Assembly (NCBI RefSeq): GCF_019633745.1
Contig: NZ_CP037968.1
Location: 998,789-1,062,788 of the forward strand
DNA from: Methanofollis formosanus
GTDB lineage: Archaea > Halobacteriota > Methanomicrobia > Methanomicrobiales > Methanofollaceae
DNA: 64,000 nucleotides
Direction of reading: 5' to 3'
The first letter of the stretch is position 1; each line of letters opens with the position of its first letter. The notes beneath the pieces are model-generated. The model had not been told where the DNA came from. It saw nothing but the letters and a program-made list of their open reading frames with translations, and did not search any database. The translations under genes were made by a program, and so were the position numbers. Positions 2,384 to 62,049 of the stretch are shown in pieces.

Positions 2384-2691
2384 ATTTTTCATGAGGCGAG
2401 CGCCTGCCTCAAGCATACGGGATGAAAATTTCTCGTCGCTTGATCGCTCTTTTTCAAGACAGGAGTACTCGTGGAGACCTCACGCAATCGCCGCCCCCAC
2501 CTATCCTCATCGTGGGGGGTCCGGGGGGTGCAACCCCCCCGGCGCGAGATGGCAGGGAAATCTCGACGATGGGGGCGGCCGATCCATCAGAGGAATTTTC
2601 TATCCTCTGCGTATCGGCTTCAAAGGGATATGGCAGGTTCAAACGCTCATGCAAATCTGAAGAGAGGATCGTCAGGATCATTTTCATAGTA
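2384..2691 (+). repeat. dispersed repeat family R1, second tandem copy
   Basis: A near-identical repetition of the preceding unit, sharing the terminal motifs, the central G/C hairpin and the GGATCATTTTCATAGTAATTT end. Differences are mostly in the hairpin and the oligo-pyrimidine part. Confidence 0.8.
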
Positions 2692-2822
2692 ATTTAGTAT
2701 GGACCCCGGGCTCAAGCATACGCGATTGAACATTTCTCGTCGCTTGATCCCTCTTTTTTCAAGACTGAAGAACCGGTGGAGATCGTGTTCCATCGGCGGG
2801 GGCGGCGATCGAGGTGTGAGAA
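2692..2822 (+). repeat. dispersed repeat family R1, truncated third copy
   Basis: It has the CTCAAGCATACGCGAT motif, the CTTGATCCCTCTTTTTTCAAG stretch and the ATCGTGTTCCATCGGCGG motif, then stops before the long hairpin. It is the truncated end of a three-unit direct array. Confidence 0.7.
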
Positions 2823-2879
2823 AACCAATCCTATCTGCTATTGGCAGATGTTTACGGGCCGGCTGTGTCTGAGGGGCGC

Positions 2880-3593
2880 TCACCAGTCCTTCTTCATCGC
2901 CTCCGCCCTCATCTCTTTCGGCATCAGTTCGATGGCGTACCGCAGCGCCGTCCGCGGCATCGTTTTCTTGTGCTCCATCACATACGCGAAGATCTCGTCC
3001 CGGTGCTGCCTGCTCGCCTCCTTGAGGAGCCAGCCGTACCCCTTCTGCACCAGGTCGTCTTCGTCGGTGAGGAGAAGATCGGCGATCTCGATCGCGTCGT
3101 CCAGGAATTTTCCGTGTTTTGCCGGGACGATCAGCGAGACGGCGGCGGCCCGCCGCATCCACCGGTTCTCTGACTGTGTCCAGCGTTTGAGCTCCTCGAT
3201 GTACCCGGGGTATTCTTCGATGAAGTCGCCCACTGCGTGGTTGCAGAGCCCGTCGCATTCGGCCCAGTTGGAGATGGAGGTCTCGATCCAGTGCCTGAAG
3301 ACGGCGAGGTCTCCGGGTTCGTACCGGTCTTTCAGCAGGTGCGCCCATTTCGAGACGATGAAGGCCTCCTCCATATATCCTGACCGGTAGAGTTCCTCAC
3401 AGAGGGCGAAGATCTCCGCTTTGTCCCGCGTTTTCACCTCCTTCCAGTACTTCTTCGCGATCGCGTGGACGGCCGAGGTCTTGAGGCCATAGCAGACGAT
3501 CTCTTCCTTGAAGAACCGTCGGGAGTTCTTCCGGATCTCGGGATCCGCCTGCTCCTGCAGTTCTTCACGGATCTGCGCAATGACCGGGTCCAT
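2880..3593 (-). CDS. DNA alkylation repeat protein (AlkD-like DNA glycosylase)
   Basis: The 237-aa product is all helical and matches the HEAT-like DNA alkylation repeat family, which removes alkylated bases (N3-/N7-alkyl purines) from DNA. The family signature is visible: FIVSKWAHLLK, then SNWAECDGLC with the Trp and Asp that line the AlkD DNA-binding face, and RWMRRAAAVSLIVPAK, where RR-A-AVSLI is highly conserved. Length fits the family. The gene stands alone, opposite in strand to the flanking genes. The start at 3593 gives the usual N-terminus. Confidence 0.9.
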   Translation of the reverse strand: MDPVIAQIREELQEQADPEIRKNSRRFFKEEIVCYGLKTSAVHAIAKKYWKEVKTRDKAEIFALCEELYRSGYMEEAFIVSKWAHLLKDRYEPGDLAVFRHWIETSISNWAECDGLCNHAVGDFIEEYPGYIEELKRWTQSENRWMRRAAAVSLIVPAKHGKFLDDAIEIADLLLTDEDDLVQKGYGWLLKEASRQHRDEIFAYVMEHKKTMPRTALRYAIELMPKEMRAEAMKKDW

Positions 3594-4074
3594 GGAAAAT
3601 GCTGGGGAGTTGGTAAAAATAAGGGTTCCGAAGGGACCGCCGGGTCAGGCCGCACCGGAACTTCCGGGGTCATCACTCAGGATTATGAATGGACGATCGA
3701 GGGAGGGGCGAGCAGGTGCGGGAGAGGGTGCGGCATCCGCTCTCCGGAGGTGGGCGGATCTCCGAGATAATAGGCCGTCCCCTGAGATATCCAGGCGCAT
3801 CAGGAATACCTCATCACAATACGGGATATGATTGAATCCCCATACAGAAAACAGATAAAACCAGGCTATCACCGACAATGCCGCCATGGCGGAGAGATTC
3901 TTGAAATATAAACCGATTTCAGGGATTAAAACCCGCATATTGCCGAATTCTCCCGTTGCAACGGGTTCAGAGAATTCATAAAATCTGCTTAACATATTTG
4001 ACGGAAGAATCAAAATCAATTTATATTGCCGATCTAGAGATGGTATCAACATATAATTTACAGGACTAAATCGC
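3594..4074. other. upstream region of the surface-protein island
   Basis: AT-rich in its second half. Two TATA-like motifs lie at 4020-4027 (TTTATATTG) and 4049-4056 (CATATAAT), ahead of the first surface gene. An ORF on the minus strand across this stretch has no ribosome site or recognisable product. Otherwise I see nothing. Confidence 0.5.
4019..4056 (+). promoter_or_regulatory. candidate TATA boxes upstream of the first surface gene
   Basis: TTTATATTG at 4020 would start RNA near 4047 and allow translation from ATG 4075. CATATAAT at 4049 would start it near 4080 and allow only ATG 4135. Which one is used decides the N-terminus of the protein. Confidence 0.45.
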
Positions 4075-7000
4075 ATGGAATCAAAAAAAAATCAACCCTA
4101 CAAATTATCTCGACATACTCATCCAGACAGGGCGATGAAAAGAGGAATGCTTCTCTTCTTCATCCTCCTCGCCGGCCTCCTCCTCGTGGCGCCGGCAATG
4201 GCTGGCCCCCAGACCGGCACGACCGAGTTGACGATCACTAAACTCGCCAAAGACGGATCGGTGATCGCACAGAAAACCGTCGATTACGAATGGATGGAAA
4301 AGAACCTGCCGGTACTGGGGGACGGGAAGACCCACTGGTATATGCAGGGACCGACCTTTGACGAGGACAACAAATGGGATCCTTCGGAATCGGTGAACGT
4401 CGACAGCCGCGATTACGGCGCACCGAAAGGGACCGATGTCAGGGATCTCTGTGACCTTGTCGGCGGGATGAGTCCCGGAGACGAGATCAGGATCGAATCC
4501 CCGGACGGTTTTTACAAGACGTTCGGGTACGAGAACGTGTACGACCCCAAGCCGCGCCAGGGGCCGATGGTGATCTGCTGGTACATTGGCGAGGAATCGA
4601 TCACCGGAGACTACCAGGGTGTGGGCTATCCCCCCGACTACTTCGTCGGGATGCGCCTCCTCTTCTATGCCGACACCTCGACCAACCCCTGGGGCAGACA
4701 CGTCTTCGGCCACTCCGATATGCAGGCATGCCTCGACGAAAAATACTGGCACTATTATAACGGCATATGGCCGGCGACAAGCGGACTCTCAGTAAAGAAT
4801 GTCGGTGAGGTCACCATCTACAGCCAGGACGAAGGCCCGGCGTACGGCAGCCTCACCGTCACTTCGGCACCTGAAGGTGCGACCGTCTTCGTGGACTTCT
4901 CAGACACCGGCAACACGACAAACACCACCTTCACCTCAGTCCTGGCCGGGAAGCATACGGTCACCGTACGCAAGAACGGGTACCTTGATGCAGAGCAGAC
5001 CGTGACCGTGCCGGCAGACGGGGACGCCTCTCTTCATTTCGACCTGAAAAAGGCGACAGGAGAATGGTACGTCGATCCCTCCGGCAACGGCACCTTCGAT
5101 ACCATCCAGAAGGCAGTCGACGCCGCCCACGAGGGCGACACGATCATCATCAGAAACGGGACATACCGGGAAAATGTCGATGTAGACAAACGCCTTCTCA
5201 TCACCTCCGAGTACGGGAAGGACACGACTATCGTGAGGGTCGCAGAAACCCACAGCCAGGACGACAATGTCTTTGACGTGACCGCCGACGGGGTGGTCAT
5301 CCGCGGCCTGACCCTGCGAGACGCAGAACTGGGCGGGTCAGGAGCGGTCTTCCACGGCACCTCGGGAGGACTGATCGAGGACGTCCGGTGCACCAACAAC
5401 AGTTACGGCATCTCCCTGCGAGGAGCGACCCATACGGTCGTCAGGAACGTATCGACCACCGACTGCTACCGGGGGGTCTACCTGACCGGCGGTGCGAACG
5501 AAAACCGGATCGAAGGTAGCGAGGTGAGTTGGAACGCCGATTACGGGATCTGGCTGGAAAGTTCGCACAACAACATCATCACCCGCAACAACGCCTCCGG
5601 GGCGGAGGGCGGCGGCGGCCTGAACTTCAGGGCGTCCAACAACAACCTCGTTACCAACAACACCGTCGACAGTTATCTCCAGGAAGGCGGGTACGGGATC
5701 ACCCTCGAGCACGGGTCGCAGAACAACACCATCTACCTCAACACCTTCCAGGGATGGTGTCCGGCAAGCGTCAGGCCGGGACAGGTCAACACCTGGAACA
5801 CCACCCGTCCGGCCACCTATGTCTATCATGGAAAGATCCATACCGGGAGGATGGGCAACTACTTTGAGCCGGGGCCGTTGAATAAGGGTTACACCGGCAC
5901 CGACGAGGACGGGGACGGCATCGGCGACACGCCCTTCCCGATCTCCCGGTGCGACGACTTCGACTATTATCCGCTCATCGAACCGGTGGCAAACTACACT
6001 CTCGGGGTATCGTCCCCGGTTCTCTCCACCATCTCGGTCGGGTCGACATCCGCGGCCGTCACGCCGGGGACGAGACTGACACTCAGCGCCGTTGCCTATG
6101 ACCAGTACGGTACCGAGATACCTGAAACATCCTTCACCTGGACCAGCAGCAACGAGACGGTGGGGACGATCGGGCAGGACGGTGCATTTGTCGCCCATGA
6201 GGTCGGGGCCACGGTGATCACCGCGGCGTCGGGCACGGTGGAAGGGAAGATGACCATGACCGTGGCCAGACCGGGCATCGTTCACGGGCCGTACATCACC
6301 GGGACGACCAGGACGGAGACGACGATCAGCTGGAAGAGCGCCGTCCCGACGGTCGGGCAGGTGGACTATGCCCCGGCGTCCGGGTACGTTCCCGGTTCCT
6401 ACGCCCACACGGTCACCGACACCGAGGAGTCCTGCCTCCACCACGTCGTCCTCACCGGGCTTGAAGCCGGGACGACCTATCATTACCGCGTGAGGGCCGG
6501 GCAGAATACGACCCGCGATTTCACCTTCCAGACATTCCCCGATACCGGAGAACCGTTCACGTTCATCGTGTACAGCGACTCGCAGGAACAGAAGCCATAT
6601 TATACACAACTGGAGAGGCACGGAATGGTCGCAGAGCGGATCGCAGAAGAGGAGGGGGACGCCGTCTTCGTCCTCCTTGTCGGCGATACGGTCAGCGAAG
6701 TGAATAATCCGGACGAATGGGACCGGTTCTTTGCGGCCGGTGGGGCGATGTTCGCGAACACCACTCTTTACACCGCCCTCGGGAACCACGAGAACAACAG
6801 AAGCATCTATTATGAGACCTTCGCTCTGCCGCAGTGGTACTCTTTTGACTGCGGCGACCTCCATGTGACGGTGCTGGACTCCAATAGCATGAAGGGCAGT
6901 CAGATGGCGAAGCAGACGGCCTGGTTCAAGGACGACCTGGCGGCGGCCGACGATGCACGCTGGACAGTCGCCGCTTTCCACCAGCCGCCGTACCACTCGG

Positions 7001-8205
7001 GCGAGGTCCATGGTCAGGGATGGCCTGACGAGGCGTGGCGGGAGACCGTCGAGGAGAGAGGGGTAGACGTCATCTTCAACGGGGACGTCCATTCATACCA
7101 GCGGTACCTGGTCAACGGCACGCAGTACATCATCGCGGCGACCGGCGGCGGGATGCAGTACCCACTCAAAGAGGAGAAGGAGCCTGGATACCAGGCTGGC
7201 ATGGAATATATCCTGGGCTATGAGCGGGTGCAGGTGGACCCGGCGAAAGGGACGGTTACGATGGAGTTCGTGCCGGTGGCCGGGGTCTCGGAGGACAGCA
7301 GCGAGATCACGAAGGTCTATCCGCCGGGCGAGGTCTTCGACCGGGTGGTGCTCGGTCAGAGCGTGGGGCCCGACCTGGCGCCGGTGACGATCGCGACCGA
7401 CGGCCCGGCGGTGGCCGGGGAGGATGCCACGGTGGTGGTGACGGTCGAGAATATCGGCGGGACCGCGGCCGGGGCCTTCGCGGTCAACCTCACAGTGGAC
7501 GGTGCGGCCCTCGGGAAGCAGGAGGCCGCAGGTCTTCTTGCCGGCGAGAGGGCGACCTTCGCCTTCTCCTGGAAACCGGAAAGCCAGGGCCAGTACACCT
7601 TTGTAGCGGTGGTCGAAGGCCCGGCTGAAGAGGCGGCCGTCGAGAACAATCAGATGGTACAGCAGATCGCTGTCCTCTCGCCGGACGAGAACCCGGCCTT
7701 CAAAGAGGGAGCGATCAAACTTGCCCCAGGCTGGAACCTTGTTTCGGTCCCGAAGCAGTTGGCGCCGGGCAGTGACACGGCCCTGGTCTTCGCGGGCGTA
7801 GAGTCTGCCGGGCATTCGCTCTGTACCTTTGACGCCGGGACGCAGCGCTGGCAGGCCCTGGGCCCGGACGATCCCGTCACCCCCCTCACCGGGGTGCTCG
7901 TCTATGCCGGAGACGCGGCCGCCGTGCCCCTGACCTTCGACACCGATCCGGTCCATCTCCCGCCGGCGAAGCGGCTCTCGAAGGGCTGGAACCTGATAGG
8001 CATTTCAGGGACCGACACCGAACCTGCGGCCCTCGCCCTCGTCTCGGCGGAAGGGCGGTGGGAGCGGTGCGTCGGCTACGACGCCCTGCGGCAGATCTAC
8101 GAGACGCCGGTGACGGCCGACGCCGCCGGCCGCGTCCTCTTCCCGGGCAAGGGCTACTGGCTCGGAGCGAGTGAGAACGGCACCCTTGCGGGAACCGCGG
8201 TCTGA
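4075..8205 (+). CDS. giant secreted surface protein with beta-helix and metallophosphoesterase
   Basis: 1376 aa. Rough domain order: signal peptide (MKRGMLLFFILLAGLLLV, residues 21-44); a methanogen surface domain with WMEKNLPVLGDGKTHWYMQG (about 45-255); a PEGA domain (260-325); a NosD/CASH-type parallel beta-helix with many NNT sequons (330-645); a Big_2 Ig-like domain (655-735); an Fn3-like domain plus calcineurin-type metallophosphoesterase of the purple acid phosphatase kind (740-1080; VGDT, GNHEN, FHQPPYHSG, NGDVHSYQ); CARDB (1095-1205); and a C-terminal domain shared with three neighbours (1215-1376). Start 4075 has AGGA eight bases upstream and shares its MESK beginning with the gene at 21840. 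ATG 4135 would give a more ordinary signal peptide. The protein is predicted to be extracellular; the phosphatase substrate is unknown. Confidence 0.85.
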   Translation: MESKKNQPYKLSRHTHPDRAMKRGMLLFFILLAGLLLVAPAMAGPQTGTTELTITKLAKDGSVIAQKTVDYEWMEKNLPVLGDGKTHWYMQGPTFDEDNKWDPSESVNVDSRDYGAPKGTDVRDLCDLVGGMSPGDEIRIESPDGFYKTFGYENVYDPKPRQGPMVICWYIGEESITGDYQGVGYPPDYFVGMRLLFYADTSTNPWGRHVFGHSDMQACLDEKYWHYYNGIWPATSGLSVKNVGEVTIYSQDEGPAYGSLTVTSAPEGATVFVDFSDTGNTTNTTFTSVLAGKHTVTVRKNGYLDAEQTVTVPADGDASLHFDLKKATGEWYVDPSGNGTFDTIQKAVDAAHEGDTIIIRNGTYRENVDVDKRLLITSEYGKDTTIVRVAETHSQDDNVFDVTADGVVIRGLTLRDAELGGSGAVFHGTSGGLIEDVRCTNNSYGISLRGATHTVVRNVSTTDCYRGVYLTGGANENRIEGSEVSWNADYGIWLESSHNNIITRNNASGAEGGGGLNFRASNNNLVTNNTVDSYLQEGGYGITLEHGSQNNTIYLNTFQGWCPASVRPGQVNTWNTTRPATYVYHGKIHTGRMGNYFEPGPLNKGYTGTDEDGDGIGDTPFPISRCDDFDYYPLIEPVANYTLGVSSPVLSTISVGSTSAAVTPGTRLTLSAVAYDQYGTEIPETSFTWTSSNETVGTIGQDGAFVAHEVGATVITAASGTVEGKMTMTVARPGIVHGPYITGTTRTETTISWKSAVPTVGQVDYAPASGYVPGSYAHTVTDTEESCLHHVVLTGLEAGTTYHYRVRAGQNTTRDFTFQTFPDTGEPFTFIVYSDSQEQKPYYTQLERHGMVAERIAEEEGDAVFVLLVGDTVSEVNNPDEWDRFFAAGGAMFANTTLYTALGNHENNRSIYYETFALPQWYSFDCGDLHVTVLDSNSMKGSQMAKQTAWFKDDLAAADDARWTVAAFHQPPYHSGEVHGQGWPDEAWRETVEERGVDVIFNGDVHSYQRYLVNGTQYIIAATGGGMQYPLKEEKEPGYQAGMEYILGYERVQVDPAKGTVTMEFVPVAGVSEDSSEITKVYPPGEVFDRVVLGQSVGPDLAPVTIATDGPAVAGEDATVVVTVENIGGTAAGAFAVNLTVDGAALGKQEAAGLLAGERATFAFSWKPESQGQYTFVAVVEGPAEEAAVENNQMVQQIAVLSPDENPAFKEGAIKLAPGWNLVSVPKQLAPGSDTALVFAGVESAGHSLCTFDAGTQRWQALGPDDPVTPLTGVLVYAGDAAAVPLTFDTDPVHLPPAKRLSKGWNLIGISGTDTEPAALALVSAEGRWERCVGYDALRQIYETPVTADAAGRVLFPGKGYWLGASENGTLAGTAV

Positions 8206-8212: not shown

Positions 8213-8224
8213 AGTCTGATCAGA
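8213..8224. repeat. 12-bp perfect palindrome after the first surface gene
   Basis: GTCTGATCAGAC, just past the stop codon and followed by a T-rich stretch around 8245-8262. It may act with the T tract as a transcription end. Confidence 0.4.
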
Positions 8225-8656
8225 CGCGCAGAATACAAATCAGATTATTTTATTCTTTTTTCGTGCCATAATGCCCAAAACATCGAATGGGATCCATCCA
8301 ATAGAGATAAATGCCACAATTACAATAATACGGACAAGCCGGAGTGGAATCCCGACCTTTTCAGAGCAACAGAGATCTTTCACGCGCCTTTGAGGCCCCG
8401 TTGCGGTCAAACGGGTAAAGGCAATTTAGTTAATATAATTTACACCTCCATGAAAAGAGATTTATAACTCGCCCGATCGACGTTCACGTATCTAAAAACC
8501 AACCGGAAGTGAAACCATGAGTTTACGTCGTGCGATCCTGAGAATGAAAAATCCCAAAGCGCTGCCTCTCCAGTGCCCTCGCAGGGCAGGGGCAGAAGTT
8601 CGGTCCGTGGCGGCCTTCCGCCACGCCGCATCCTCTTTTTCCGTTCGGTGATATCG
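8218..8656 (+). promoter_or_regulatory. duplicated promoter and structured leader, copy 1
   Basis: 439 bp, matched without a gap by 16466-16904. A BRE/TATA box (AAAAGAGATTTATAAC, 8453-8468) predicts an RNA start near 8490, hence a leader of roughly 165 nt. Two helices can form. P1 pairs 8562-8568 with 8589-8595 and 8574-8579 with 8583-8588 (TGCCCT-CGC-AGGGCA). P2 is an 8-bp stem, 8606-8613 with 8618-8625. A pyrimidine tract (8631-8642) and a ribosome site GGTGAT (8647-8652) follow. A 44-codon ORF (8517-8651) ends inside that ribosome site. The two copies keep both hairpins. Confidence 0.7.
8453..8468 (+). promoter_or_regulatory. BRE/TATA promoter of the 2227-aa surface gene
   Basis: AAAAGAGATTTATAAC: a purine-rich BRE directly before TTTATAAC, the canonical archaeal form. 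It is identical in the duplicate at 16701-16716. Confidence 0.75.
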
Positions 8657-11600
8657 ATGAATAAATCAACTGGAATTATCTGTCTTATTCTGCTTACCCT
8701 CCTCATCGCCCCCGCTGCAGCGGCGACGCTGTATGTCGACGACAACGGCGGCGAAGGGATCTACACGACCATCGGCGAGGCCATCACGGCCGCCGCCGAT
8801 GGAGACTGCATCGTCGTCCGAGACGGCGCCTACACCGAGAACGTGCAGGTGGACAAACAACTCTGCATCCGCTCCGAGAACGGCGCGTCGGCCGTCACCG
8901 TCACCGCCGCAGCCGCCACAAAACCGGTCTTCAACCTCGCCGCCAACGGCGTGACCATCGAAGGCTTCACGGTCTGCGGACCGGGTGACTGGGGTGCGAT
9001 CGAGATCGTCGGGTTCAACGATTGCATCGTCAGGAAGAACGACTGTTCGGGTTGCTACAACGGCATTCACCTCGGCGGAGCGGCGACGAACAACACCATT
9101 GAGGAGAACTATTGCCACGAGAACGACAAGCGCGGCCTCAGTGTCCGCGACACCGCCAACGCCAACCTCCTCGTCAACAACACCTGTGAGAAGAACGCTG
9201 AAGACGAGATCTGCATCAAGGACGCAGCGAAGAACAACGTCATCTGGGCAAACGCCTTCAACGGGACTGTTGAACTCCGCACGGCGAACATCTATCACTC
9301 GTCGGCAGAGGTAGCCTACACCTATGGTTCGAAAGCCTTCACCGGCTATGTCGGGAACTATTACAGCCGGTACACCGGCGCGGACGCCGACACGAACGGT
9401 ATCGGCGACACACCCATGTCCTTTGGTACCTATAAGGACGAGTACCCGATGATGGGGCTCTGGCGGAACGGTGAGATCACCGGCGGGCCGACCACCCCGG
9501 TCGGTCCCACGACCCGGTACGTCGATGCCAGCGGGGGCACCGCCTACGCCACGATAAATGATGCAGTCGCGGCCTCGAACCCCGGCGACACCATCATCGT
9601 GAAGGACGGCGCCTACACCGAGAACGTGCAGGTGGACAAAGATCTCGTCATCCGCTCCGAGAACGGGGCGTCGGCCGTCACCGTCACCGCCGCAGCCGCC
9701 ACAAAACCGGTCTTCAACCTCGCCGCCAACGGCGTGAAGGTCGAAGGATTCACGGTCTGCGGCCCGAGCGACTGGGGTGGCGTGGAGATCGTCGGGTTCA
9801 ACGATTGCACGGTCAGGAAGAACGACGTTTCAGGCTGCTACAACGGCATTCACCTCGGCGGAGCTGCGACGAACAACACCGTCGATGAGAACTATTGCCA
9901 CGAGAACGACAAGCGCGGCCTCAGTGTCCGCGACACCGCCAACGTCAACCTCCTCGTCAACAACATCTGTGAGAAGAACGGAGAAGACGAGATCTGCATC
10001 AAGGACGCAGCGAAGAACAACATCATCTGGGCAAACGCCTTCAACGGAACCGTCGAACTCAGAACCGCAAACACCTACCACTCCCCAGAAGAAGTGGCCT
10101 ACATCTATGGTTCGAAAGCCTTCACCGGCTATGTCGGGAACTATTACACCCGGTACACCGGCGCGGACGCCGACACCAACGGCATCGGCGACACACCGAT
10201 GTCATTCGGCACCTACAAGGACGAGTACCCGATGATGGGGCTCTGGCGGAACGGTGAGATCACCGGCGGGCCGATTGGTGCGGCGACGCTGTATGTCGAC
10301 GACGACGGCGGCGAAGGCGTCTACACCACCATCTCTGATGCGGTCGCGGCCTCGAACGCCGGCGACACCGTCGTCGTCCGCGACGGCGCCTACACCGAGA
10401 ACGTGCAGGTGGACAAACAACTCTGCATCCGCTCCGAGAACGGCGCCGGCGCCGTGACGGTCACCGCCGCCTCCCCCACCAAACCGGTCTTCAACCTCGC
10501 CGCCAACGGCGTGACCCTCGAAGGCTTCACGTTCTGCGGCCCCAGTGACTGGGGCGGGATCGAGGTCGTCGGGTTCAATGACTGCACGGTCAGGAAGAAC
10601 GACGTTTCAGGCTGCTACAACGGCATTCACATCGGTGAAACAGCGACGAACAACACCGTCGAAGAAAACTATTGCCACGAGAACGACAAGCGTGGTCTCA
10701 GTGTCCGCGACACCGCAAACGCCAACATCCTCGTCAACAACACCTGCGAGAAGAACGGAGAGGACGAGATCTGCATCAAGGACGCAGCGAAGAACAACGT
10801 CATCTGGGCCAACGCCTTCAACGGAACCGTCGAACTCCGCACGGCGAACACCTACCACTCCCCAGAAGAAGTGGCCTACACCTACGGTACGAAGGCGTGC
10901 ACCGGCTATGTCGGGAACTACTACAGCCGGTACACCGGCGCGGACGCCGACACCAACGGTATCGGCGACACCTCGATGTCCTTTGGTACCTACAAGGACG
11001 ACTACCCCATGATGGGCCTCTGGCGGAACGGCGAGATCACCGGCGGGCCGGTGCAGGAGTCGAAGACATGGTATGTCGATAAAGCCGGCGGCGAGGGAGT
11101 CTACACCTCCATCGGGGCGGCGGTCACGGCCGCCGCCGAGGGTGACATTATCGTCGTCCGCGACGGCACCTACACCGAGAACGTGCAGGTGGACAAACAA
11201 CTCTGCATCAGCTCCGAGAACGGTGCGTCGACAGTCACCGTCACCGCTGCCTCCCCCACAAAACCGGCCTTCAACCTCGCCGCCGACGGCGTGATCCTCG
11301 AAGGCTTCACGGTCTGCGGCCCCAGTGACTGGGGCGGCATTGAGATCGTCGGGTTCAACGATTGCATCGTCAGGAAGAACGACTGTTCGGGGTGCTACAA
11401 CGGCATCCACATCGGCGGCAACGCCACCGGCAACACCGTCGAAGAGAATTATTGTCACGAGAACAACAAACGCGGTCTCAGTGTCCGCGACACCGCCAAC
11501 GCCAACATCCTCGTCAACAACACCTGCGAGAAGAACAACGACGACGAGATCTGCATCAAGGACGTAGCGAAGAACAACGTCATCTGGGCCAACACCTTCA

Positions 11601-14600
11601 ACGGAACCGTCGAACTCAGAACTGCAAACACCTATCACTCACCAGAAGAAGTAGCCTACACCTACGGCGCGAAGACCTTCACCGCCTATGTCGGGAATTA
11701 CTACAGCCGGTACACCGGCACCGACGCCGACACCAACGGCATCGGCGACACACCCATGTCCTTCGGCGTCTACAAGGACGAGTACCCGATGATGGGGCTC
11801 TGGAAGAACGGCACGATCACCGGCGGAAAGACGGGTCCGACGACGCTGTATGTCGACGACGACGGCAGCGCCGACTTCACCACCATCCAGGCGGCGATCA
11901 ACGCCTCCGCTGCAGGCGACATCATCATCGTCAGGGACGGCACCTACACCGAGAACGTGTACGTCGACAAAGAGCTGCTGACAATCAAGTCTGAGAACGG
12001 TTCTGCATCGACAAGGGTCCTAGCAGCGGACCCAGCCAACAATGTCTTTACGATTGTCAGGAAATCTGTGAATATCACGGGATTTACGATCAAGGGAGCA
12101 AACTCCTCAACTGCCTTCAAGGCAGGGGTCCGCATCTCTGCCTCATACTGCTCGGTCACAGAAAATACCTGTACTGATTGCATGCACGGCATCCAGATTA
12201 AGGGCAAAAATAACACCGTAACCGGGAACAACTGCGTTTACTGCCCTGGAAACGGCATCTGGCTAGATCAGTTCACCGGGAACAACACCGTGGTGAACAA
12301 CACCTGTTCCCACAGCCGTAACGGCATTAAACTGGACTATTCAAGTCACAATGAGATCTATCTCAATAATTTCGTGGACAATAAATATAACGAACTCTGT
12401 GGTTACCTTTCTGCCAGTACCTGGAACACCACCGAGCCGATAACCTACACATACCGCGGCAAGACGTTCACCAACTATCTCGGCAACTACTACGGACATT
12501 ACACCGGCAAGGATGCCTTCGGCGATGGGATCGGCGACACCCCCTATTTCGCCCGCAACAACGGCGGCACCGACCACGCACCCCTGATGGGGGCGTGGAA
12601 GGACGGCACCATAGAGTCGTCCGGCCCCCTGACCTTCTATGTCGACGATGACGGTGGCGAGGGAGTCTACACCACCATCAGCGAGGCGGTCAGAGAAGCC
12701 ATCGCAGGCGACATCATCATCATCAGGAACGGCACCTACACCGAGAACGTGCTGGTGGACAAACAACTCTGCATCCGCTCCGAGAACGGCACTTCGGCTG
12801 TCACCGTCACGGCCGCCGCCGCCTCCAAACCGGTCTTCGACGTCGATGCCGACGGTGTGACCGTGGAGGGCTTCACGATCCGCGGCCCGACGAACGAACA
12901 CATCGCGGGCATCGAGATCGTCGGATTCGACAACGGTACCTTCAGGAAGAACGACTGTTCGGGGTGCTACAACGGCATCCATCTCGGCGGCGACGCAACC
13001 GGCAACACCGTCGAGGAGAACTATTGTCACGATAACACCAGGCGCGGCATCAGTCTCCGCGACAGTGTCCACGACAACCTGGTCTTCAACAACATCTGCG
13101 AGCAGAACACCGACGACCAGATCTGCGTCAAGGACACACCGAAAGACAACATCATCTGGGCCAACACCTTCAAAGGCTCCGTCGAACTCCTCACGGCAAA
13201 CACCTACCATTCACCCGCCGAAGTGACCTACATCTACGGGCGTGACACCTTCACCAGTTATGTCGGGAACTATTACAGCCAGTACACCGGCACCGACGCC
13301 GACACGAACGGCATCGGCGACACTCCGATGTCCTTTGGCACCTATAAGGACGAGTACCCGATGATGGGCTCATGGCAGAACGGCACGATCACCGGCGGGC
13401 CGATGGATCCCAGAACCTGGTACGTCGACGACGACGGCAGCGCCGATTTCACCACCATCCAGGAAGCGCTCAACGAGGCATTGCCAGGCGATACGATCTC
13501 CGTCCTGCCGGGCACCTATTCAAGATTCAATGTCAACAAACCTCACATAACCATCATGAGCAGAGATGGGGCCGAATCGGTCATCGTGGACTGCCAGGGC
13601 AGTCAGGGCCTCAAGATCCCTGAAAGTAACAGTTATGACGCCACAGGGACAGTCCTCGACGACCTGACATTTCTCAATGGAAGGCCGAGTTTCTACTTAG
13701 GATATTATGGCCCGGCCAACGATTCGGTTGTCAGAAACTGCGTACTCGAAGAAATCGCACTCCAGGTCTATCTAAAAGGCAACAATCTCACGCTCGATGA
13801 TAACACTTTCATGAATACGACAGGATCTCCCGTATCTGTCGTGTATTTGAGAGATTCAACAGACTGCAACGTCATCGACAACACATTCATGAACATTACA
13901 ACGCGCTACGGGATCATGTACCTCCGCGGCACGGCTACTACCAACAACATCATCAGCGGAAACACCTTCGATACCGGCGGAAATTCCTTCTTCTTCCGTG
14001 AAGCCGGCGACGGGAACCAGATTTTCCTGAACAACAACGTCTCGAGCGTCGGCCTCCGGGAGGGCACCACCGCCCCGAACGTCACCCACTGGAACGCCAC
14101 CGCTCCCGTCACCTACACCTACCATGGCGTTGAACACACCGGCTATCTCGGGAACTTCTGGTCCAACTGCACCGGTGAGGACACCAACGACGACGGCGTC
14201 ATCAACACCGCGTACGAACTCCCCGACGGCCTGGGCACCGACCACGCACCCCTGATGGGCACCTGGCAGGATGGTGTGATCAGTGCATCTGCTCCCGAAC
14301 TCACCGCCATCACCCTCGTACCGGCCACCGCCGGTATGACCGTCGGTGACGGGCAGCAGTTCGCCGCAACCGCCTACGACCAGTACGGCGAGGAGATCGC
14401 AGAGACCGAGTTCACCTGGACGAGCAGCAACACCGCCGTCGCAACCGTGAATGCCACCGGATACGTCGAGGCGCTCACCGCCGGCACCGCGACCATCACC
14501 GCCACGAGCGGCGAGGTCAGTGGCACCGCCGAAGTGACGGTGAGCACCGAACCGTCTGAACTCACCACCATCGTCATCGCCCCGGCCACCGCCGGCATGA

Positions 14601-15340
14601 CCGTCGGTGACGGGCAGCAGTTCACCGCGACCGCCTACGACCAGTACGGCGAGGAGATCGCAGAGACCGCGTTCACCTGGACGAGCAGCAACACCGCCGT
14701 CGCAACCGTGAACGCCACCGGCTATGTCGAGGCAGTCGCTGCCGGCACCGCAACCATCACCGCCGCGAGCGGCGAGGTCAGCGGCACCGCCGAAGTGACG
14801 GTGAGTGCAGAACCGTCGTCCGAGTTCACCAGCATCACCCTCAAGAAGGGATGGAACTTTATCTCGGTCCCGCGGACCCTCGCACCGGGCACCGACACCG
14901 CCGCGATCTTCGCAGACGTCGAATCCGCCGGCCACTCCATCCTCGCCTTCGACGCCGCCGCAGGACTCTGGAAGACCCTCGGCGAGAACGACACGGTCAG
15001 CCCCCTCGACGGCATCTGGGTCTACGCCGCCCAGAGCACCACCGTCGAACTCACCGTCGACCCGGCAAAACCCGTGACACCGCCGACAAAGCACCTCTCC
15101 GAGGGATGGAACGCCATCGGGTTCTCAGACATCGAACCGGCAGCGGCAAAGGACGCACTCATCTCCGTCAAGGAGAACTGGGCCATCCTCATCGGCTATG
15201 ACGCCGAGAGCCAGGCATACGAACACTCGGCCATCAACGGCGCCGTCGGAAGCCACACCGACACCCTCCCCATGATACCGGGCAAGGGATACTGGCTGTT
15301 CCTCAGGGCGGACGGCACCCTGGCGGCCATCAGCACCTAA
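8657..15340 (+). CDS. giant secreted beta-helix repeat protein
   Basis: 2227 aa. A signal peptide (MNKSTGIICLILLTLLIAP, cut near AAAA-TLYVDD) is followed by seven NosD/CASH-type beta-helix modules of about 255-260 aa. Modules 1-4 and 6 are close copies; 5 and 7 are divergent. Each close copy carries the same cysteine series (VCGP, NDC, SGCYNG, NYCHEN, TCEKN, ICIKD) and a closing GYVGNYYSRYTGADADTNG motif. Two Big_2 Ig-like domains (about 1880-2050) and the shared C-terminal domain (KKGWNFISVP ... PGKGYWL) come last. There is no C-terminal membrane segment. Start 8657 follows GGTGAT by four bases; an upstream in-frame GTG (8573) lies inside the leader. The ligand is unknown. Confidence 0.85.
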   Translation: MNKSTGIICLILLTLLIAPAAAATLYVDDNGGEGIYTTIGEAITAAADGDCIVVRDGAYTENVQVDKQLCIRSENGASAVTVTAAAATKPVFNLAANGVTIEGFTVCGPGDWGAIEIVGFNDCIVRKNDCSGCYNGIHLGGAATNNTIEENYCHENDKRGLSVRDTANANLLVNNTCEKNAEDEICIKDAAKNNVIWANAFNGTVELRTANIYHSSAEVAYTYGSKAFTGYVGNYYSRYTGADADTNGIGDTPMSFGTYKDEYPMMGLWRNGEITGGPTTPVGPTTRYVDASGGTAYATINDAVAASNPGDTIIVKDGAYTENVQVDKDLVIRSENGASAVTVTAAAATKPVFNLAANGVKVEGFTVCGPSDWGGVEIVGFNDCTVRKNDVSGCYNGIHLGGAATNNTVDENYCHENDKRGLSVRDTANVNLLVNNICEKNGEDEICIKDAAKNNIIWANAFNGTVELRTANTYHSPEEVAYIYGSKAFTGYVGNYYTRYTGADADTNGIGDTPMSFGTYKDEYPMMGLWRNGEITGGPIGAATLYVDDDGGEGVYTTISDAVAASNAGDTVVVRDGAYTENVQVDKQLCIRSENGAGAVTVTAASPTKPVFNLAANGVTLEGFTFCGPSDWGGIEVVGFNDCTVRKNDVSGCYNGIHIGETATNNTVEENYCHENDKRGLSVRDTANANILVNNTCEKNGEDEICIKDAAKNNVIWANAFNGTVELRTANTYHSPEEVAYTYGTKACTGYVGNYYSRYTGADADTNGIGDTSMSFGTYKDDYPMMGLWRNGEITGGPVQESKTWYVDKAGGEGVYTSIGAAVTAAAEGDIIVVRDGTYTENVQVDKQLCISSENGASTVTVTAASPTKPAFNLAADGVILEGFTVCGPSDWGGIEIVGFNDCIVRKNDCSGCYNGIHIGGNATGNTVEENYCHENNKRGLSVRDTANANILVNNTCEKNNDDEICIKDVAKNNVIWANTFNGTVELRTANTYHSPEEVAYTYGAKTFTAYVGNYYSRYTGTDADTNGIGDTPMSFGVYKDEYPMMGLWKNGTITGGKTGPTTLYVDDDGSADFTTIQAAINASAAGDIIIVRDGTYTENVYVDKELLTIKSENGSASTRVLAADPANNVFTIVRKSVNITGFTIKGANSSTAFKAGVRISASYCSVTENTCTDCMHGIQIKGKNNTVTGNNCVYCPGNGIWLDQFTGNNTVVNNTCSHSRNGIKLDYSSHNEIYLNNFVDNKYNELCGYLSASTWNTTEPITYTYRGKTFTNYLGNYYGHYTGKDAFGDGIGDTPYFARNNGGTDHAPLMGAWKDGTIESSGPLTFYVDDDGGEGVYTTISEAVREAIAGDIIIIRNGTYTENVLVDKQLCIRSENGTSAVTVTAAAASKPVFDVDADGVTVEGFTIRGPTNEHIAGIEIVGFDNGTFRKNDCSGCYNGIHLGGDATGNTVEENYCHDNTRRGISLRDSVHDNLVFNNICEQNTDDQICVKDTPKDNIIWANTFKGSVELLTANTYHSPAEVTYIYGRDTFTSYVGNYYSQYTGTDADTNGIGDTPMSFGTYKDEYPMMGSWQNGTITGGPMDPRTWYVDDDGSADFTTIQEALNEALPGDTISVLPGTYSRFNVNKPHITIMSRDGAESVIVDCQGSQGLKIPESNSYDATGTVLDDLTFLNGRPSFYLGYYGPANDSVVRNCVLEEIALQVYLKGNNLTLDDNTFMNTTGSPVSVVYLRDSTDCNVIDNTFMNITTRYGIMYLRGTATTNNIISGNTFDTGGNSFFFREAGDGNQIFLNNNVSSVGLREGTTAPNVTHWNATAPVTYTYHGVEHTGYLGNFWSNCTGEDTNDDGVINTAYELPDGLGTDHAPLMGTWQDGVISASAPELTAITLVPATAGMTVGDGQQFAATAYDQYGEEIAETEFTWTSSNTAVATVNATGYVEALTAGTATITATSGEVSGTAEVTVSTEPSELTTIVIAPATAGMTVGDGQQFTATAYDQYGEEIAETAFTWTSSNTAVATVNATGYVEAVAAGTATITAASGEVSGTAEVTVSAEPSSEFTSITLKKGWNFISVPRTLAPGTDTAAIFADVESAGHSILAFDAAAGLWKTLGENDTVSPLDGIWVYAAQSTTVELTVDPAKPVTPPTKHLSEGWNAIGFSDIEPAAAKDALISVKENWAILIGYDAESQAYEHSAINGAVGSHTDTLPMIPGKGYWLFLRADGTLAAIST
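8726..13400 (+). repeat. tandem intragenic repeats of about 780 bp (beta-helix modules)
   Basis: Units begin near 8726, 9506, 10281, 11062, 11836 (diverged) and 12633, each opening with a variant of TLYVDDDGGEGVYTTI and closing with EYPMMGLWRNGEITGGP. Units 1-4 are nearly identical at DNA level over long stretches, which implies recent duplication or ongoing gene conversion. The same module occurs in the genes at 16905 and 23033. Confidence 0.85.
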
Positions 15341-15363
15341 TTTTTTTCGTGAGGAAGAAGACC

Positions 15364-16452
15364 ATGAAAAGAATCTCCATCGTTCTCATCATCGCCCTCG
15401 CACTCGTCACAGGTGTCATGGCGGCAGAAGAAGTGCCGCAGATGCCAGACGAGTACAAGGGCACCGTCACCATCGACGGCACACCCGCACCCGCGGGCAC
15501 GACCATCCTCGCCCTCATCGACGGCGAGGTCGCAGGGACCATCACCATCGACGAACCGGGCACCTTCGGCGGCGACAAAAACACCGACCAGAACCTCCCG
15601 GTCACCGGTTACGCCGACGACGTCGGCAAGACCGTCACCTTCACCGTTGGCGGCAAGGAAGCCGGGAAGGCAACCTTCCGCCCCGGCGAGGTGCACACCA
15701 TCGCCCTTGCAGCGAAGAGCGGCACCACGCCGACCCCGACCCCCGGCAGCAGCGGCGGCGGCGGGGGCGGCAGCCCCTCGAACCCCGCTCCGGTGAGAAC
15801 CGTCGCACCCTCCGTCGAGGCACCGGCAGCACCGGTCGTCGGCAGCACACCGCTCGCAACCTCCGCGACCGGCACCGTGGACGAGCCCGCAGCCGTCGTC
15901 TCATCAGACCGGATCGCAACCATCTCAGTACCTGAAGGAACCGCGGCCCACAACTCCGAAGGCACGCCCCTCGACGAGATCACCATCAGGCCCGCGTCAC
16001 CCGGCGAGGTGCCCGACGCCGCCGGCGTGACCGGGTTCGTCGCAGCAGGCTATACCTACCTCTGCGGACCCGCCGGCGCAACCTTCGACCCCGCCATCAC
16101 CCTTACCTTCGAGATCCCGGCGGAGAAATGGAAAGACCTCAAAGAGGGTGACCTCACCGTCAGGTGGTACAACGCCGACGCAGGACGATGGGAAGAGATC
16201 CCGACCACCGTCGACTATGAGACCATGACCGTCACCGCCGAAGTCTCGCACTTCAGCACCTTCGCACTCTTCACCGCCGCACAAACGCCCTCCGCCGGAG
16301 ACGACGACCGCCCGGCAGCACAGGTCACCGACGCGAACGGTGTCGAGGCACCCCGCGGCGAGACGACAGACCGGACTCTCCCGATCGTCACGGGCGTCCT
16401 CCTCATCGTTGGCATCGCCGGTGCCGCGATCTACATGAAGAAGAAAGACTAA
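15364..16452 (+). CDS. membrane-anchored surface protein with ZU5-like domain
   Basis: 362 aa: signal peptide (MKRISIVLIIALALVTGVMA), a small Ig-like beta domain (about 20-115, carrier-like, GTVTIDGTPAPAGTTI), a low-complexity linker (TPTPTPGSSGGGGGG, then Pro/Ala-rich), and a domain of about 150 aa ending in TVTAEVSHFSTFALF that resembles ZU5/PGF-pre-PGF-type domains. One C-terminal membrane helix (LPIVTGVLLIVGIAGAAIY) and KKKD close it. It starts 23 bases after the giant gene with ribosome site GAGGAAGA, so the two are probably co-transcribed. The anchor and position suggest a cell-surface partner of the secreted giant; that is inference. Confidence 0.8.
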   Translation: MKRISIVLIIALALVTGVMAAEEVPQMPDEYKGTVTIDGTPAPAGTTILALIDGEVAGTITIDEPGTFGGDKNTDQNLPVTGYADDVGKTVTFTVGGKEAGKATFRPGEVHTIALAAKSGTTPTPTPGSSGGGGGGSPSNPAPVRTVAPSVEAPAAPVVGSTPLATSATGTVDEPAAVVSSDRIATISVPEGTAAHNSEGTPLDEITIRPASPGEVPDAAGVTGFVAAGYTYLCGPAGATFDPAITLTFEIPAEKWKDLKEGDLTVRWYNADAGRWEEIPTTVDYETMTVTAEVSHFSTFALFTAAQTPSAGDDDRPAAQVTDANGVEAPRGETTDRTLPIVTGVLLIVGIAGAAIYMKKKD

Positions 16453-16465
16453 ACCTCCCAGGATA

Positions 16466-16904
16466 GATCAGACGCGCAGAATACAAATCAGATTATTTTA
16501 TTCTTTTTTCGTGCCATAATGCCCAAAAAGCCGAATGTGATCCATCCAATAGAGATAAATGCCACAATTACAATAATACGGACAAGCCGGAGCGGCATCC
16601 CGACCTTTTCAGAGCAACAGAGATCTTTCACGCGCCTTCGAGGCCCCGTTGCGGTCAAATGGGTAAAGGCAATTTAGTTAATATAATTTACACTTTCATG
16701 AAAAGAGATTTATAACTCGCCCGATCGACGTTCACGTATCTAAAAACCAACCGGAAGTGAAACCATGAGTTTACGTCGTACGATCCTGAGAATGAAAAAC
16801 CCCAAAGCGATGCCTCTCCAGTGCCCCCCCGGGGCAGGGGCAGAAGCTCGGTCCGTGGCGGTCTTCCGCCACGCCGCATCCTCTTTTTCCGTTCGGTGAT
16901 ATCG
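16466..16904 (+). promoter_or_regulatory. duplicated promoter and structured leader, copy 2
   Basis: Matches 8218-8656 at an exact offset of 8248 bases with no insertion or deletion. P1 is 16810-16843 and P2 is 16854-16873. In P1 the base pair T8579-A8583 of copy 1 is C16827-G16831 here, a two-sided change that keeps the helix. The P2 tetraloop differs (TCTT against CCTT) while its stem is unchanged. The leader ORF (16765-16899, 44 codons) is also kept but with several amino-acid changes. Confidence 0.7.
16701..16716 (+). promoter_or_regulatory. BRE/TATA promoter of the 1439-aa surface gene
   Basis: AAAAGAGATTTATAAC, identical to the element at 8453-8468. Confidence 0.75.
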
Positions 16905-19900
16905 ATGAATAAATCAACTGGAATTATCTGTCTTATTCTGCTCACCCTCCTCATCGCCCCCGCTGCAGCGGCGACGCTGTATGTCGACGACGACGGTGGC
17001 GAGGGAGTCTACACGACTATCGGGGCGGCGGTCACGGCTGCCGCCGATGGAGACGGCATCATCGTGAAGGACGGCACCTACACCGAGAACGTGCAGGTGG
17101 ACAAACTGCTCTGCATCTGCTCCGAGAACGGCGCCGGTGCAGTCACCGTCACCGCTGCCTCTCCCGCAAAACCAGTCTTCAACCTCGCCGCCAACGGCGT
17201 GACGGTCGAAGGATTCACGGTCTGCGGACCGGGCGACTGGGGCGGCGTGGAGATCGTCGGGTTCAAAGACTGCACCGTCAGGAAGAATGACGTTTCAGGC
17301 TGCTACAACGGCATTCACATCGGCGGCGACGCCTCAGGCAACACCGTTGAGGAGAACTATTGCCACGAGAACGACAAACGTGGTCTTAGTGTCCGCGACA
17401 CCGCTACCGGCAACCTCCTCTTCAACAACACCTGCGAGAAGAACGCCGAAGACCAGATCTGCATCAAGGACGCAGCGAATAACAATATCATCTGGGCCAA
17501 CGCCTTCAACGGCACTGTTGAACTCCGCACGGCGAACATCTATCACTCGTCGGCAGAGGTGACATACACCTATGGTTCGAAAGCGTGCACCGGCCATGTC
17601 GGCAACTATTACAGCCGGTACACCGGCGCAGACGCCGACACCAACGGCATCGGCGACACACCCATGTCCTTTGGTACCTATAAGGACGAGTACCCGATGA
17701 TGGGACTCTGGCGGAACGGCGAGATCACCGGCGGGCCCATCGACCCGGCCGACCTCGTCATTGCCATTGCGGGTGCGCCGGGCTGCACGGGGGAGGGTGC
17801 GGACGTTGCGTTCGAGGATACGGTGACGGTCACCAACAACGGGACCGCGACCGCAGAGGCGTTCTCGGTCTTTTTGTATGCCACTCTTACATCGGAGGAG
17901 GAGATCGTCGTCGGGAACCTGACCGTCGAGAGCCTTGCCGGCGGCGGGGCGGCGGCGGACCTCACGTTCACCTGGGAACCGCCGCGGCGCGAGATGAAGA
18001 TGCTGCGAGCGGTCGTCGATGCAGGTGAAGTGGTGACGGAGACGAACGAGACGAACAACGAGGCAACCTTCACCATCACGCCGCCCAGTTATGGTGGGAC
18101 GACCGAGGTCACCGTCATCAAACATGCAGAGAACGGCACCGTCGTCAACTCAACGACCGTGCATTTCAGATGGATGGAACGCAACCTCCCGGTCCTCGGC
18201 GACGGCAAGACCAGGTATTATCACCAGGGACCGGTCTTCGAGAACGAGTGGAAAATGGTCCATCCGAACGAGCCCTACGACAAGTGGAATCCGACCGAGG
18301 ACGTCAACCTCGTCGATTACGGCGTCATGAGAGGGACGGATGTCCGGGATCTCTGCGACCTCGTCGGTGGCATGACACCGGGCGACCGGATCACCGTCAG
18401 GGCACGGGACGGGTGGAAGGTGTCGTTCGGGTATGTGAATATCTATGAATACGAGGCAAGGCAGGGGCCTCTGGTCCTCACCTGGGAGGCCGACGGCAAA
18501 AAGGTGCCAGGAGGATACCGAGACGGGATGAGGGTCTTCTTCTTCGCCGACAACTCAACCAACCCGCACGGATGGCATGTCTTCGGCATCGACGACATGG
18601 TCAACTGTCTCAGGCCGTCAGACTGGCACTTCTACGAGGACGAACCATCACCCAAGGGTATTTCGACGAAGTTCGTCAAAGAGATCCATATCTATACCCG
18701 TGATCCACCGGCCGTCGAGCGGATCGTCGTCAAACCGGAACTGGCAGATGTCTTTGCCGGGGAGGTGCAGCAGTTCGTAGCCATATGCTACGACCAGTAC
18801 GACGATGTTATGAAGAATATCCCGGTCACCTGGTCGTTCAGCAACGAAACGGTCGGCGAGATCGAACAGGACGGACTGTACACAGGACACGCCATCGGTA
18901 CCGCTCACGTCGTCGCAACAGTAGAGGGCGTTAACGGGACCGCAACCGTCTTCCCGACCGAGATCGTTGCATGGGCAGACCCATGCGAGTCGGCCGCAGG
19001 ATGGACCGGGACGAACTTCTTGGTGAATGATGCCAAGTTCCATGAAGGAAGGAACAGCATCAGTTCGGGCTGGTCGACGAAGAATTCCCTGGCAGAGCGG
19101 ACGATCATCTTCCCGGAGAGGGCGACCACCCTCAGTTTCGACGCCTATGTGTACCTGGATAGGACCGTCGACGGAGACTGGGCGAAGATCTTCCTGGACG
19201 ACACGGAGATCGTCGAAGGAAAGAATGACGGGAGCATGTGGAAAAACTACGTCATCGACATCTCAGGATATGCACCGGGTGAGCACACCTTCAGGCTGCA
19301 GACCCATTTCAATGAGAGCAGCAGTAAATACCGGTACCTCAGCGTCGGTGTCGATGATATCAGGCTGATGGCGGCACGAGATGTTCCGACAGGGCCCCCG
19401 GTGGCGACGCTGTATGTCGACGACGACGGCGGGGATGGGATCTACACCACTATCTCCGATGCGGTCGCGGCCTCGAACGCCGGCGACACCATCGTCGTGA
19501 AGGACGGCGTCTACACCGAGAACGTGCTGGTGGACAAACTGCTCGTCATCCGCACCGAGAACGGCGCCGGCGCCGTGACCGTCACGGCCGCGACCACCGG
19601 CAAACCGGTCTTCGACGTCAACGCCGACGGCGTGACCGTCGAAGGCTTTGCGGTCCGCGGGCCGACCGACGAGCACGTCGCGGGCATCGAGATCGTCGGG
19701 TTCGACGACTGCATCGTCAGGAAGAACGACTGCGCCGGGTGCTACAACGGCATCCACCTCGGCGGCGACGCCACCGGCAACACCGTCGAAGAGAACTATT
19801 GTCACGAGAACAGCAAGCGCGGCCTCAGCCTCCGCGACACCGTCGCCGGCAATCTCGTCTTCAACAACACCTGCGAGAACAACGCTGAAGCCGAGATCTG

Positions 19901-21224
19901 CATCAAAGACTCGGCAAAGGGCAACACCGTCTGGGCCAACGCCTTCCTCGGCCCCGTCGAGATCAAGACCGCCAACACCTACCACTCGCCCGAAGAGGTG
20001 ACCTACACCTACCGCGGCGGCGAGTACACCGGCTACGTCGGGAACCACTACAGCAGATACACCGGCATCGACGACGACACAAACGGCATCGGCGACACCT
20101 CGATGTCCTTCGGCACCTACAAGGACGATTACCCGATGATGGGCGAGTGGCAGAATGGTGTGATCAGTGCACCTGCTCCCGAACTCACCACCATCACCCT
20201 CGACCCGACCACCGCCGGCATGACCGTCGGTGACGGCCGGCAGTTCACGGCGACCGCCCGCAACCAGTACGGCGAAGAGATCGCAGGGACCAAGTTCACC
20301 TGGACGAGCAGCAACAACGCCGTCGCAACCGTCAACGCTACCGGGTACGTCGAGGCGGTCGCCGCAGGCACCGCAACCATCACCGCCACGAGCGGCGAGG
20401 TCAGCGGAACCGCCGAGGTGACGGTGAGCCTCGCACCCGCAGAACTCACCACCATCGTCATCGAACCGGCCACCGCCAGCCTGACCGTCGGTGACGGCCG
20501 GCAGTTCACCGCCACCGCCCGCAACCAGTACGGCGAGGAGATCGCAGAGACCACGTTCACCTGGACGAGCAGCAACACTGCCGGCGCAACCGTCAACGCA
20601 ACCGGATACGTCGAGGCGGTCGCCGCGGGCACCGCGACCATCACCGCGACGAGTGGAGAGGTCAGCGGAACCGCCGAAGTGACGGTGAGTGCTGCACCTT
20701 CACCCGAATTCACCGCCCTCACTCTCAAGAAGGGATGGAACTTCGTCTCCGTCCCGCGGACCCTCGCACCCGGCAACGACACCGCTCTGATCTTCGCGGA
20801 CGTCGACTCCGCCGGCCACTCCATCCTCGCCTTCGACGCCGCCGCAGGACTCTGGAAGACCCTCGGCGAGAACGACATCGTCCGGCCCCTCGACGGCATC
20901 TGGGTCTACGCAGCAGAGAGCACCACCGTCGAAATCACCGTCGACCCCGCAAAACCCGCGACCCCCCCGACAAAGCACCTCGCAGAAGGATGGAACGCCA
21001 TCGGGTTCTCAGACATCGCGCCAGAACCCGCCAGAGACGCCCTCACATCCGTGAAAGACACCTGGGCCATCCTCATCGGATTCGACGCAGAAAAGCAGGC
21101 ATACGAACACTCGGCCATCAACGGCGCCACCGGCACCCACGCCGACACCTGCCCCATGATACCGGGCAAGGGATACTGGCTGTACATGCGTGCCGACGGA
21201 ACCCTGGCGGCCATCAGCACCTAA
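16905..21224 (+). CDS. giant secreted beta-helix/CARDB/Ig-like surface protein
   Basis: 1439 aa. The signal peptide is identical to that of the 8657 gene. Then follow one beta-helix module with the cysteine series (about 25-285), a CARDB domain (about 290-390), the methanogen surface domain with WMERNLPVLGDGKTRYYHQG (about 395-605), a Big_2 domain (610-690), a jelly-roll-like domain (about 690-825, WADPCESAAGWTG...), a second beta-helix module (830-1090), two Big_2 domains (1090-1265) and the shared C-terminal domain (1270-1439). It is a mosaic of modules found in its neighbours. Start 16905 follows GGTGAT. An oligo-T stop signal follows. No membrane anchor is present. Confidence 0.85.
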   Translation: MNKSTGIICLILLTLLIAPAAAATLYVDDDGGEGVYTTIGAAVTAAADGDGIIVKDGTYTENVQVDKLLCICSENGAGAVTVTAASPAKPVFNLAANGVTVEGFTVCGPGDWGGVEIVGFKDCTVRKNDVSGCYNGIHIGGDASGNTVEENYCHENDKRGLSVRDTATGNLLFNNTCEKNAEDQICIKDAANNNIIWANAFNGTVELRTANIYHSSAEVTYTYGSKACTGHVGNYYSRYTGADADTNGIGDTPMSFGTYKDEYPMMGLWRNGEITGGPIDPADLVIAIAGAPGCTGEGADVAFEDTVTVTNNGTATAEAFSVFLYATLTSEEEIVVGNLTVESLAGGGAAADLTFTWEPPRREMKMLRAVVDAGEVVTETNETNNEATFTITPPSYGGTTEVTVIKHAENGTVVNSTTVHFRWMERNLPVLGDGKTRYYHQGPVFENEWKMVHPNEPYDKWNPTEDVNLVDYGVMRGTDVRDLCDLVGGMTPGDRITVRARDGWKVSFGYVNIYEYEARQGPLVLTWEADGKKVPGGYRDGMRVFFFADNSTNPHGWHVFGIDDMVNCLRPSDWHFYEDEPSPKGISTKFVKEIHIYTRDPPAVERIVVKPELADVFAGEVQQFVAICYDQYDDVMKNIPVTWSFSNETVGEIEQDGLYTGHAIGTAHVVATVEGVNGTATVFPTEIVAWADPCESAAGWTGTNFLVNDAKFHEGRNSISSGWSTKNSLAERTIIFPERATTLSFDAYVYLDRTVDGDWAKIFLDDTEIVEGKNDGSMWKNYVIDISGYAPGEHTFRLQTHFNESSSKYRYLSVGVDDIRLMAARDVPTGPPVATLYVDDDGGDGIYTTISDAVAASNAGDTIVVKDGVYTENVLVDKLLVIRTENGAGAVTVTAATTGKPVFDVNADGVTVEGFAVRGPTDEHVAGIEIVGFDDCIVRKNDCAGCYNGIHLGGDATGNTVEENYCHENSKRGLSLRDTVAGNLVFNNTCENNAEAEICIKDSAKGNTVWANAFLGPVEIKTANTYHSPEEVTYTYRGGEYTGYVGNHYSRYTGIDDDTNGIGDTSMSFGTYKDDYPMMGEWQNGVISAPAPELTTITLDPTTAGMTVGDGRQFTATARNQYGEEIAGTKFTWTSSNNAVATVNATGYVEAVAAGTATITATSGEVSGTAEVTVSLAPAELTTIVIEPATASLTVGDGRQFTATARNQYGEEIAETTFTWTSSNTAGATVNATGYVEAVAAGTATITATSGEVSGTAEVTVSAAPSPEFTALTLKKGWNFVSVPRTLAPGNDTALIFADVDSAGHSILAFDAAAGLWKTLGENDIVRPLDGIWVYAAESTTVEITVDPAKPATPPTKHLAEGWNAIGFSDIAPEPARDALTSVKDTWAILIGFDAEKQAYEHSAINGATGTHADTCPMIPGKGYWLYMRADGTLAAIST

Positions 21225-23003: not shown

Positions 23004-23032
23004 CCCTTTTTTTCTTTTCTATGGTGATTTTC

Positions 23033-28449: not shown

Positions 28450-28520
28450 TCCGATTTTGCAACGTTTCGATATTCTTCAGGATGATCGTTCCATCTATCC
28501 CCGCCCGGTTCTTCTTCGTG

Positions 28521-62045: not shown

Positions 62046-62049
62046 TTCG

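Follow-up and report, generated by a model that had tools for sequence, protein, structure and literature searches.

Two near-identical promoter-leader segments precede two beta-helix surface-protein genes in the 64,000-nt stretch of Methanofollis formosanus DNA analysed here (the window). They raise the question of what such a leader is, and whether selection acts on the structure of its RNA. The original prediction had described two hairpins in it, P1 and P2, and had taken a two-sided base-pair change in P1 as a sign of selection on the RNA. We asked where the leader comes from, which of its hairpins is found elsewhere, and what that hairpin might do.

Origin of the duplicated leader

Realignment of copy 1 (8218-8656) with copy 2 (16466-16904) confirmed two 439-bp segments matching without a gap, with 18 substitutions (95.9% identity) in a published assembly that derives from short reads (PMC9119062). 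Of the borders assigned to them, the gapless match stood and the end at 8656 did not, as the similarity reaches 9503 and 17751 (8218-9503 versus 16466-17751, 91% identity). Since the identity continues into the gene as far as 9503, the copied unit is a duplicated promoter-gene unit comprising the promoter, the leader, and the first part of the beta-helix gene. The promoter region of copy 1 (8218-8516, plus strand) has a TATA-like box, ATTTATAA, at 8460, assigned by inspection, and a ribosome-site-like GGAAGTGA before an ATG at 8517. The genes that follow on the same strand, both recognized by Pfam, encode beta-helix surface proteins of 2227 aa (B1, 8657-15340; NosD/Beta_helix/Big_2) and 1439 aa (B2, 16905-21224).

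At other loci of this genome, as well as in relatives, this promoter was found before a complete gene of about 390 codons for a secreted protein (gene A), followed by a beta-helix gene (gene B). A DNA search of the organism's own genome placed the two halves of the leader, one with the promoter and one with the start of gene B, about 1.2 kb apart (G000:C1:2783242-2784849), and the same split match occurred at G006:C1:1583174-1584567, with a complete gene between the halves at both loci. Intact gene A was present both in the own genome (G000:C1:2783333-2784526) and in syntenic relatives. The window itself holds an intact operon, its third: gene A (21840-23003, plus strand) encodes 387 aa ending in KLVVTHHHTN, and gene B3 (23033-25969, plus strand) encodes a beta-helix surface protein identified by Pfam. 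Gene A, including this copy, matched no Pfam family up to an E value of 1 and had no convincing NCBIfam or PDB match; a search of the genome contigs with it found no relative.

We consider it highly probable (roughly 85%) that the duplicated leader is a relic of an upstream gene A whose middle was deleted, a figure that applies to the origin of the leader only; the weights given below to explanations of function overlap with this origin, and they do not sum to one. Each window leader contains the first ~20 codons of gene A, a scar of ~26 nt, and the last codons of gene A, and its two halves correspond, in unchanged order, to the start and the end of a single intact gene. Before these codons, 8218-8516 aligns with the region that precedes an intact gene A in G000b (62% over 359 nt, E = 2.6e-34), G006a (66%), and G001 (66%). 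The start remnant of copy 1 (8517-8576, plus strand; first 20 codons, MSLRRAILRMKNPKALPLQC) agrees with the beginning of the own genome's intact gene A (MSLRSIVLEKRTPMALLCLC) at 37 of 60 bases, a value reached in none of 100,000 shuffles. The scar covers 26 nt (8577-8602, plus strand): by local alignment, the left BLAST match ends at 8576 (8218-8576 against G000b 2652-3010) and the right one begins at 8603 (G001) or later. The end remnant (8603-8651, plus strand) contains P2 (8607-8624, GTGGCGG-CCTT-CCGCCAC), a T-run (8636-8640), and a TGA stop (8649-8651). The missing part amounts to about 1.16 kb (G000b 3010 to 4173, from local alignments).

Across the scar, a vestigial reading frame of 44 codons stays open on the plus strand from the ATG at 8517 to the TGA at 8651; it was absent from the original prediction and is what remains of gene A. 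Copy 2 (16466-16904, plus strand), with its P2 at 16855-16872, has the same frame at 16765-16899, and the two frames differ by six nonsynonymous and two synonymous changes. A minus-strand frame of ~47 aa with a membrane-like stretch is also open in both copies (8243-8383 and 16491-16631); we rejected it as a conserved membrane protein, since related DNA before other gene A loci does not, by eye, seem to keep the frame.

In G001, G005, and G006a, a homologue of the window gene at 4075-8205 (68-73% identity) lies upstream of the intact A-B pair, so that window copy 1 occupies the ancestral place of an A-B operon. The ancestral state would have been one promoter serving a two-gene operon, gene A and then gene B, with a 7-bp hairpin in the last codons of gene A, a U-rich tract, and then the ribosome site of gene B. 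The M. formosanus lineage would have lost ~1.16 kb of gene A, leaving the promoter, ~20 codons, a short scar, and the hairpin, U-tract, and ribosome site; this deletion-derived unit would afterwards have been duplicated together with gene B.

The base-pair change in P1

The differences on which the original prediction rested are all visible in the alignment: T8579-A8583 of copy 1 corresponds to C16827-G16831 of copy 2, with a third change in the P1 loop (8581/16829); a C-to-A substitution (8562/16810) falls at the end of the outer helix; and the P2 stem is identical in both copies, with its loop differing at 8614/16862. The core of P1 (T8579-A8583) lies within the 26-nt deletion scar, and P1 has no counterpart in the intact operons. 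When the seven differences of the 100-nt hairpin region were placed randomly on the predicted fold, at least one both-sided, still-paired change arose in 7.3% of trials, or in 2.4% if at most one pair was allowed to break. Clustering such as that of 8579, 8581, and 8583, with 3 of 18 substitutions within 5 nt, occurred in 13% of random placements, and the three adjacent changes may represent one mutational event. The change in P1 is weak evidence, taken from a feature picked post hoc in two copies, and because P1 lies in a scar, lacks an intact counterpart, and shows a pattern that is not improbable, it offers no sound argument for selection. Its position in the scar and the 7% chance led us to rule out P1 as a selected helix. 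No further copy of the P1 leader was found in 232 genomes of the order.

Better covariation than that of P1 is present in the intact operons at a different place, the 5' untranslated region (UTR) of gene A. There, six loci of the genus (L048 [G006a], L054 [G001], L051 [G010], L053 [G002], L055 [G005], and L049 [G006b]) have a hairpin, TGTCGC-TGAT-GCGACA or a variant of it, near the expected transcript start. Its six pairs are formed in all 36 cells of the alignment, and two of them have changed on both sides. By eye, this hairpin is absent from the window leaders and from G000b, and it is possibly present, in another sequence, in the third window operon.

The hairpin at the A-B junction

For P2 the outcome was different. 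Its arms, GTGGCGG-NNNN-CCGCCAC, are the counterpart of GTGGTGA-NNNN-TCACCAC at the end of intact gene A. Gene A of the intact operons mostly ends in KLVVTHHH(TN); then come CCCTTTTTTTCTTTTC, GGTGAT, and the beta-helix gene, whose start lies some 20-40 nt after the gene A stop. The junction of the third window operon (22971-23036, plus strand) has this arrangement, with a hairpin at 22977-22994 (GTGGTGA-CGCA-TCACCAC), a T-run at 23007-23013, a ribosome site, and the ATG of B3. The hairpin was found at 16 of the 16 A-B junctions examined, although imperfectly in three, with one mismatch each (the closing pair in G006a and G147, an inner pair in G099b); the loci share descent, and neither this count nor the codon counts below are probabilities. 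In the window copies two of the seven pairs have changed on both sides (GTGGTGA/TCACCAC to GTGGCGG/CCGCCAC), and as both changes sit on one lineage they count as two events at most.

A covariance model, R2, made from nine A-B junctions with the window leaders left out, matched copy 1 at 8601-8660 (E = 7.5e-5) and copy 2 at 16849-16908 (E = 4.7e-4). Its remaining matches in the 64 kb were the third junction, which is part of the model (95.9 bits), and a reverse-strand match to that junction at chance level (12.9 bits). In the organism's own genome, the degenerate stem pattern GTGGYGRNNNNYCRCCAC occurred at exactly four sites, all of them junctions of gene B with gene A or its remnant. Folding energies of the A-B junctions gave modest z-scores (-0.8 to -2.4); those of the window copies, over P1 and P2 together, were -2.3 and -3.2.

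Codon usage in the tail of gene A was then compared. The Val-Val pair is encoded by GTG GTG at 16 of 16 loci with gene B, although Val is mostly encoded by GTC (57-66%). The three His residues use CAT CAC CAC at 13 of these 16, while neighbouring and loop codons vary. Four gene A loci without a beta-helix gene B use other codons: there is no stem in G009 and G150, a possible stem in another register in G015, and only a weak one in G102. Codons of gene A are generally conserved, a single codon being used in 28 of 100 conserved columns versus four of the five stem codons, and because of this the synonymous evidence for the stem is moderate.

The order-wide search with R2 led to a site in another family, G030:C18:2622-2680 (minus strand, within L107, G030:C18:1-9000). 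Here gene A breaks off after residue 52, and the sequence continues in another frame with HVKLVVTHHHTN; a beta-helix gene comes next. The deletion took residues 53-382 and spared the hairpin before gene B. By its sequence, this is a second, independent deletion of gene A. The minimum-energy fold of the site differs from the P2 hairpin, and a real T-tract is lacking. A further model, R3, found no convincing sites in the 232 genomes beyond A-B junctions and relics. Weak model matches (G006:1901293, G184, G203, and G218) were taken as chance, and no A-B junction was seen at those that were read.

The prediction of a hairpin ahead of a T-rich tract and a ribosome site is borne out, and the hairpin appears to be constrained. 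It is P2, and the support comes from its occurrence at A-B junctions elsewhere; for P1, which lies in the scar, the claim of selection on RNA structure is not supported. We tentatively propose, as a possibility somewhat short of an even chance, that the coding-end hairpin is a conserved cis-acting RNA element of Methanomicrobiales surface-protein operons, needed by gene B and retained with compensatory drift after two independent deletions of gene A.

The leader had no Rfam match at the gathering score, and in the window only two tRNAs and a fluoride riboswitch (35829-35890, minus strand; RF01734, 47 bits) were found. Other elements of the window include a dispersed repeat family outside the A-B operons, in both orientations (60-230 nt, 76-91% alike; 2072-2702, 40131-40328, 45838-45949, 50257-50747, 53787-54170, and 62043-62522), and tandem-like repeats with ~157-bp spacing that adjoin a tRNA gene (28513-29555).

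Possible roles of the hairpin

What P2 and its U-tract do may be to form an intra-operonic 3'-end or partial-termination element, a reading that we find plausible without calling it probable. RNA polymerase would partly terminate at the U-tract and the hairpin would cap the gene A message; the fraction of polymerases passing on to gene B would be smaller, less B would be made, and the ratio of A to B output would be set in this way. In the window copies the element now stands in the leader of gene B, where it could be a weak attenuator or a mere relic. We favor this reading because U-tracts inside operons of Methanococcus maripaludis cause partial termination and lower downstream expression (PMC10450193). 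The T-run has seven Ts in most intact loci of the genus, five in the window copies, and four in G099a, all within the ~4-7 U-tract length of archaeal internal operon transcription termination sites (ioTTS); the shorter run of the window copies would terminate less. The mere T4 of G099a and the lack of a real T-tract in G030 speak against this reading. As in the ioTTS of M. maripaludis (PMC10450193), a U-rich tract lies between operon genes and is expected to lower the downstream gene; those are aCPSF1-dependent U-tract signals, whereas the tract of the A-B junction comes after a conserved hairpin at the coding end of the upstream gene, and we infer the termination. A hairpin of 7-8 bp followed by a T-rich run also recalls the bacterial intrinsic terminator or attenuator, but here ~12 nt separate stem and T-run, and the host is an archaeon, in which terminators usually need no hairpin (PMC8716108).

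The main rival to termination is translational: gene A, or its vestigial 44-codon frame, together with the hairpin would couple ribosomes from A to B. The vestigial frame runs through the scar without a stop, closes 5 nt ahead of the gene B ATG, and overlaps the GGTGAT ribosome site, all of which speaks for such coupling, but the mostly nonsynonymous differences between the copies (6 to 2), the 20-40 nt between the two genes in intact operons, and the broken frames of G030 make it rather unlikely. About equally doubtful is that the hairpin has no function and is a by-product of the VVTHHH peptide and of codon choice that the window copies simply inherited. GTG-GTG and CAC-CAC are inherently complementary, and gene A codons are conserved in general; yet Val is preferentially encoded by GTC, no stem accompanies the TVTHHH of G009 and G150, and the window copies have lost the peptide and kept the pairing through two both-sided changes.

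That the inverted repeat acts as a DNA binding site of a dimeric regulator, and not as an RNA hairpin, we regard as improbable. The symmetric 7-bp arms with a 4-nt spacer would suit a dimer, and the paired changes preserve a DNA palindrome too, but the repeat is part of the gene A coding end, a TATA-like box of a separate gene B promoter was not seen, the arms stay complementary as their sequence changes, and a T-tract follows in most loci. Least probable is a structured leader dedicated to regulation, in which P1 and P2 alike are selected for RNA structure: the good folding of both copies over P1 and P2 and the one both-sided change in P1 are countered by the place of P1 in a scar, its absence from intact operons and from the rest of the 232 genomes, and the chance of about 7% for such a change.

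The window leaders resemble an internally deleted pseudogene that has become a 5' leader, the ends of gene A flanking the scar and the promoter driving gene B directly; unlike the typical case, the frame has stayed open and a duplication of the unit followed. A "structured regulatory leader" can therefore come into being when an upstream cistron collapses, and covariation between two copies should not be taken for selection unless the ancestral locus is at hand for comparison. If the hairpin is functional, intact operons and their A-less relics would constitute a natural experiment on hairpins at archaeal intra-operonic U-tracts.
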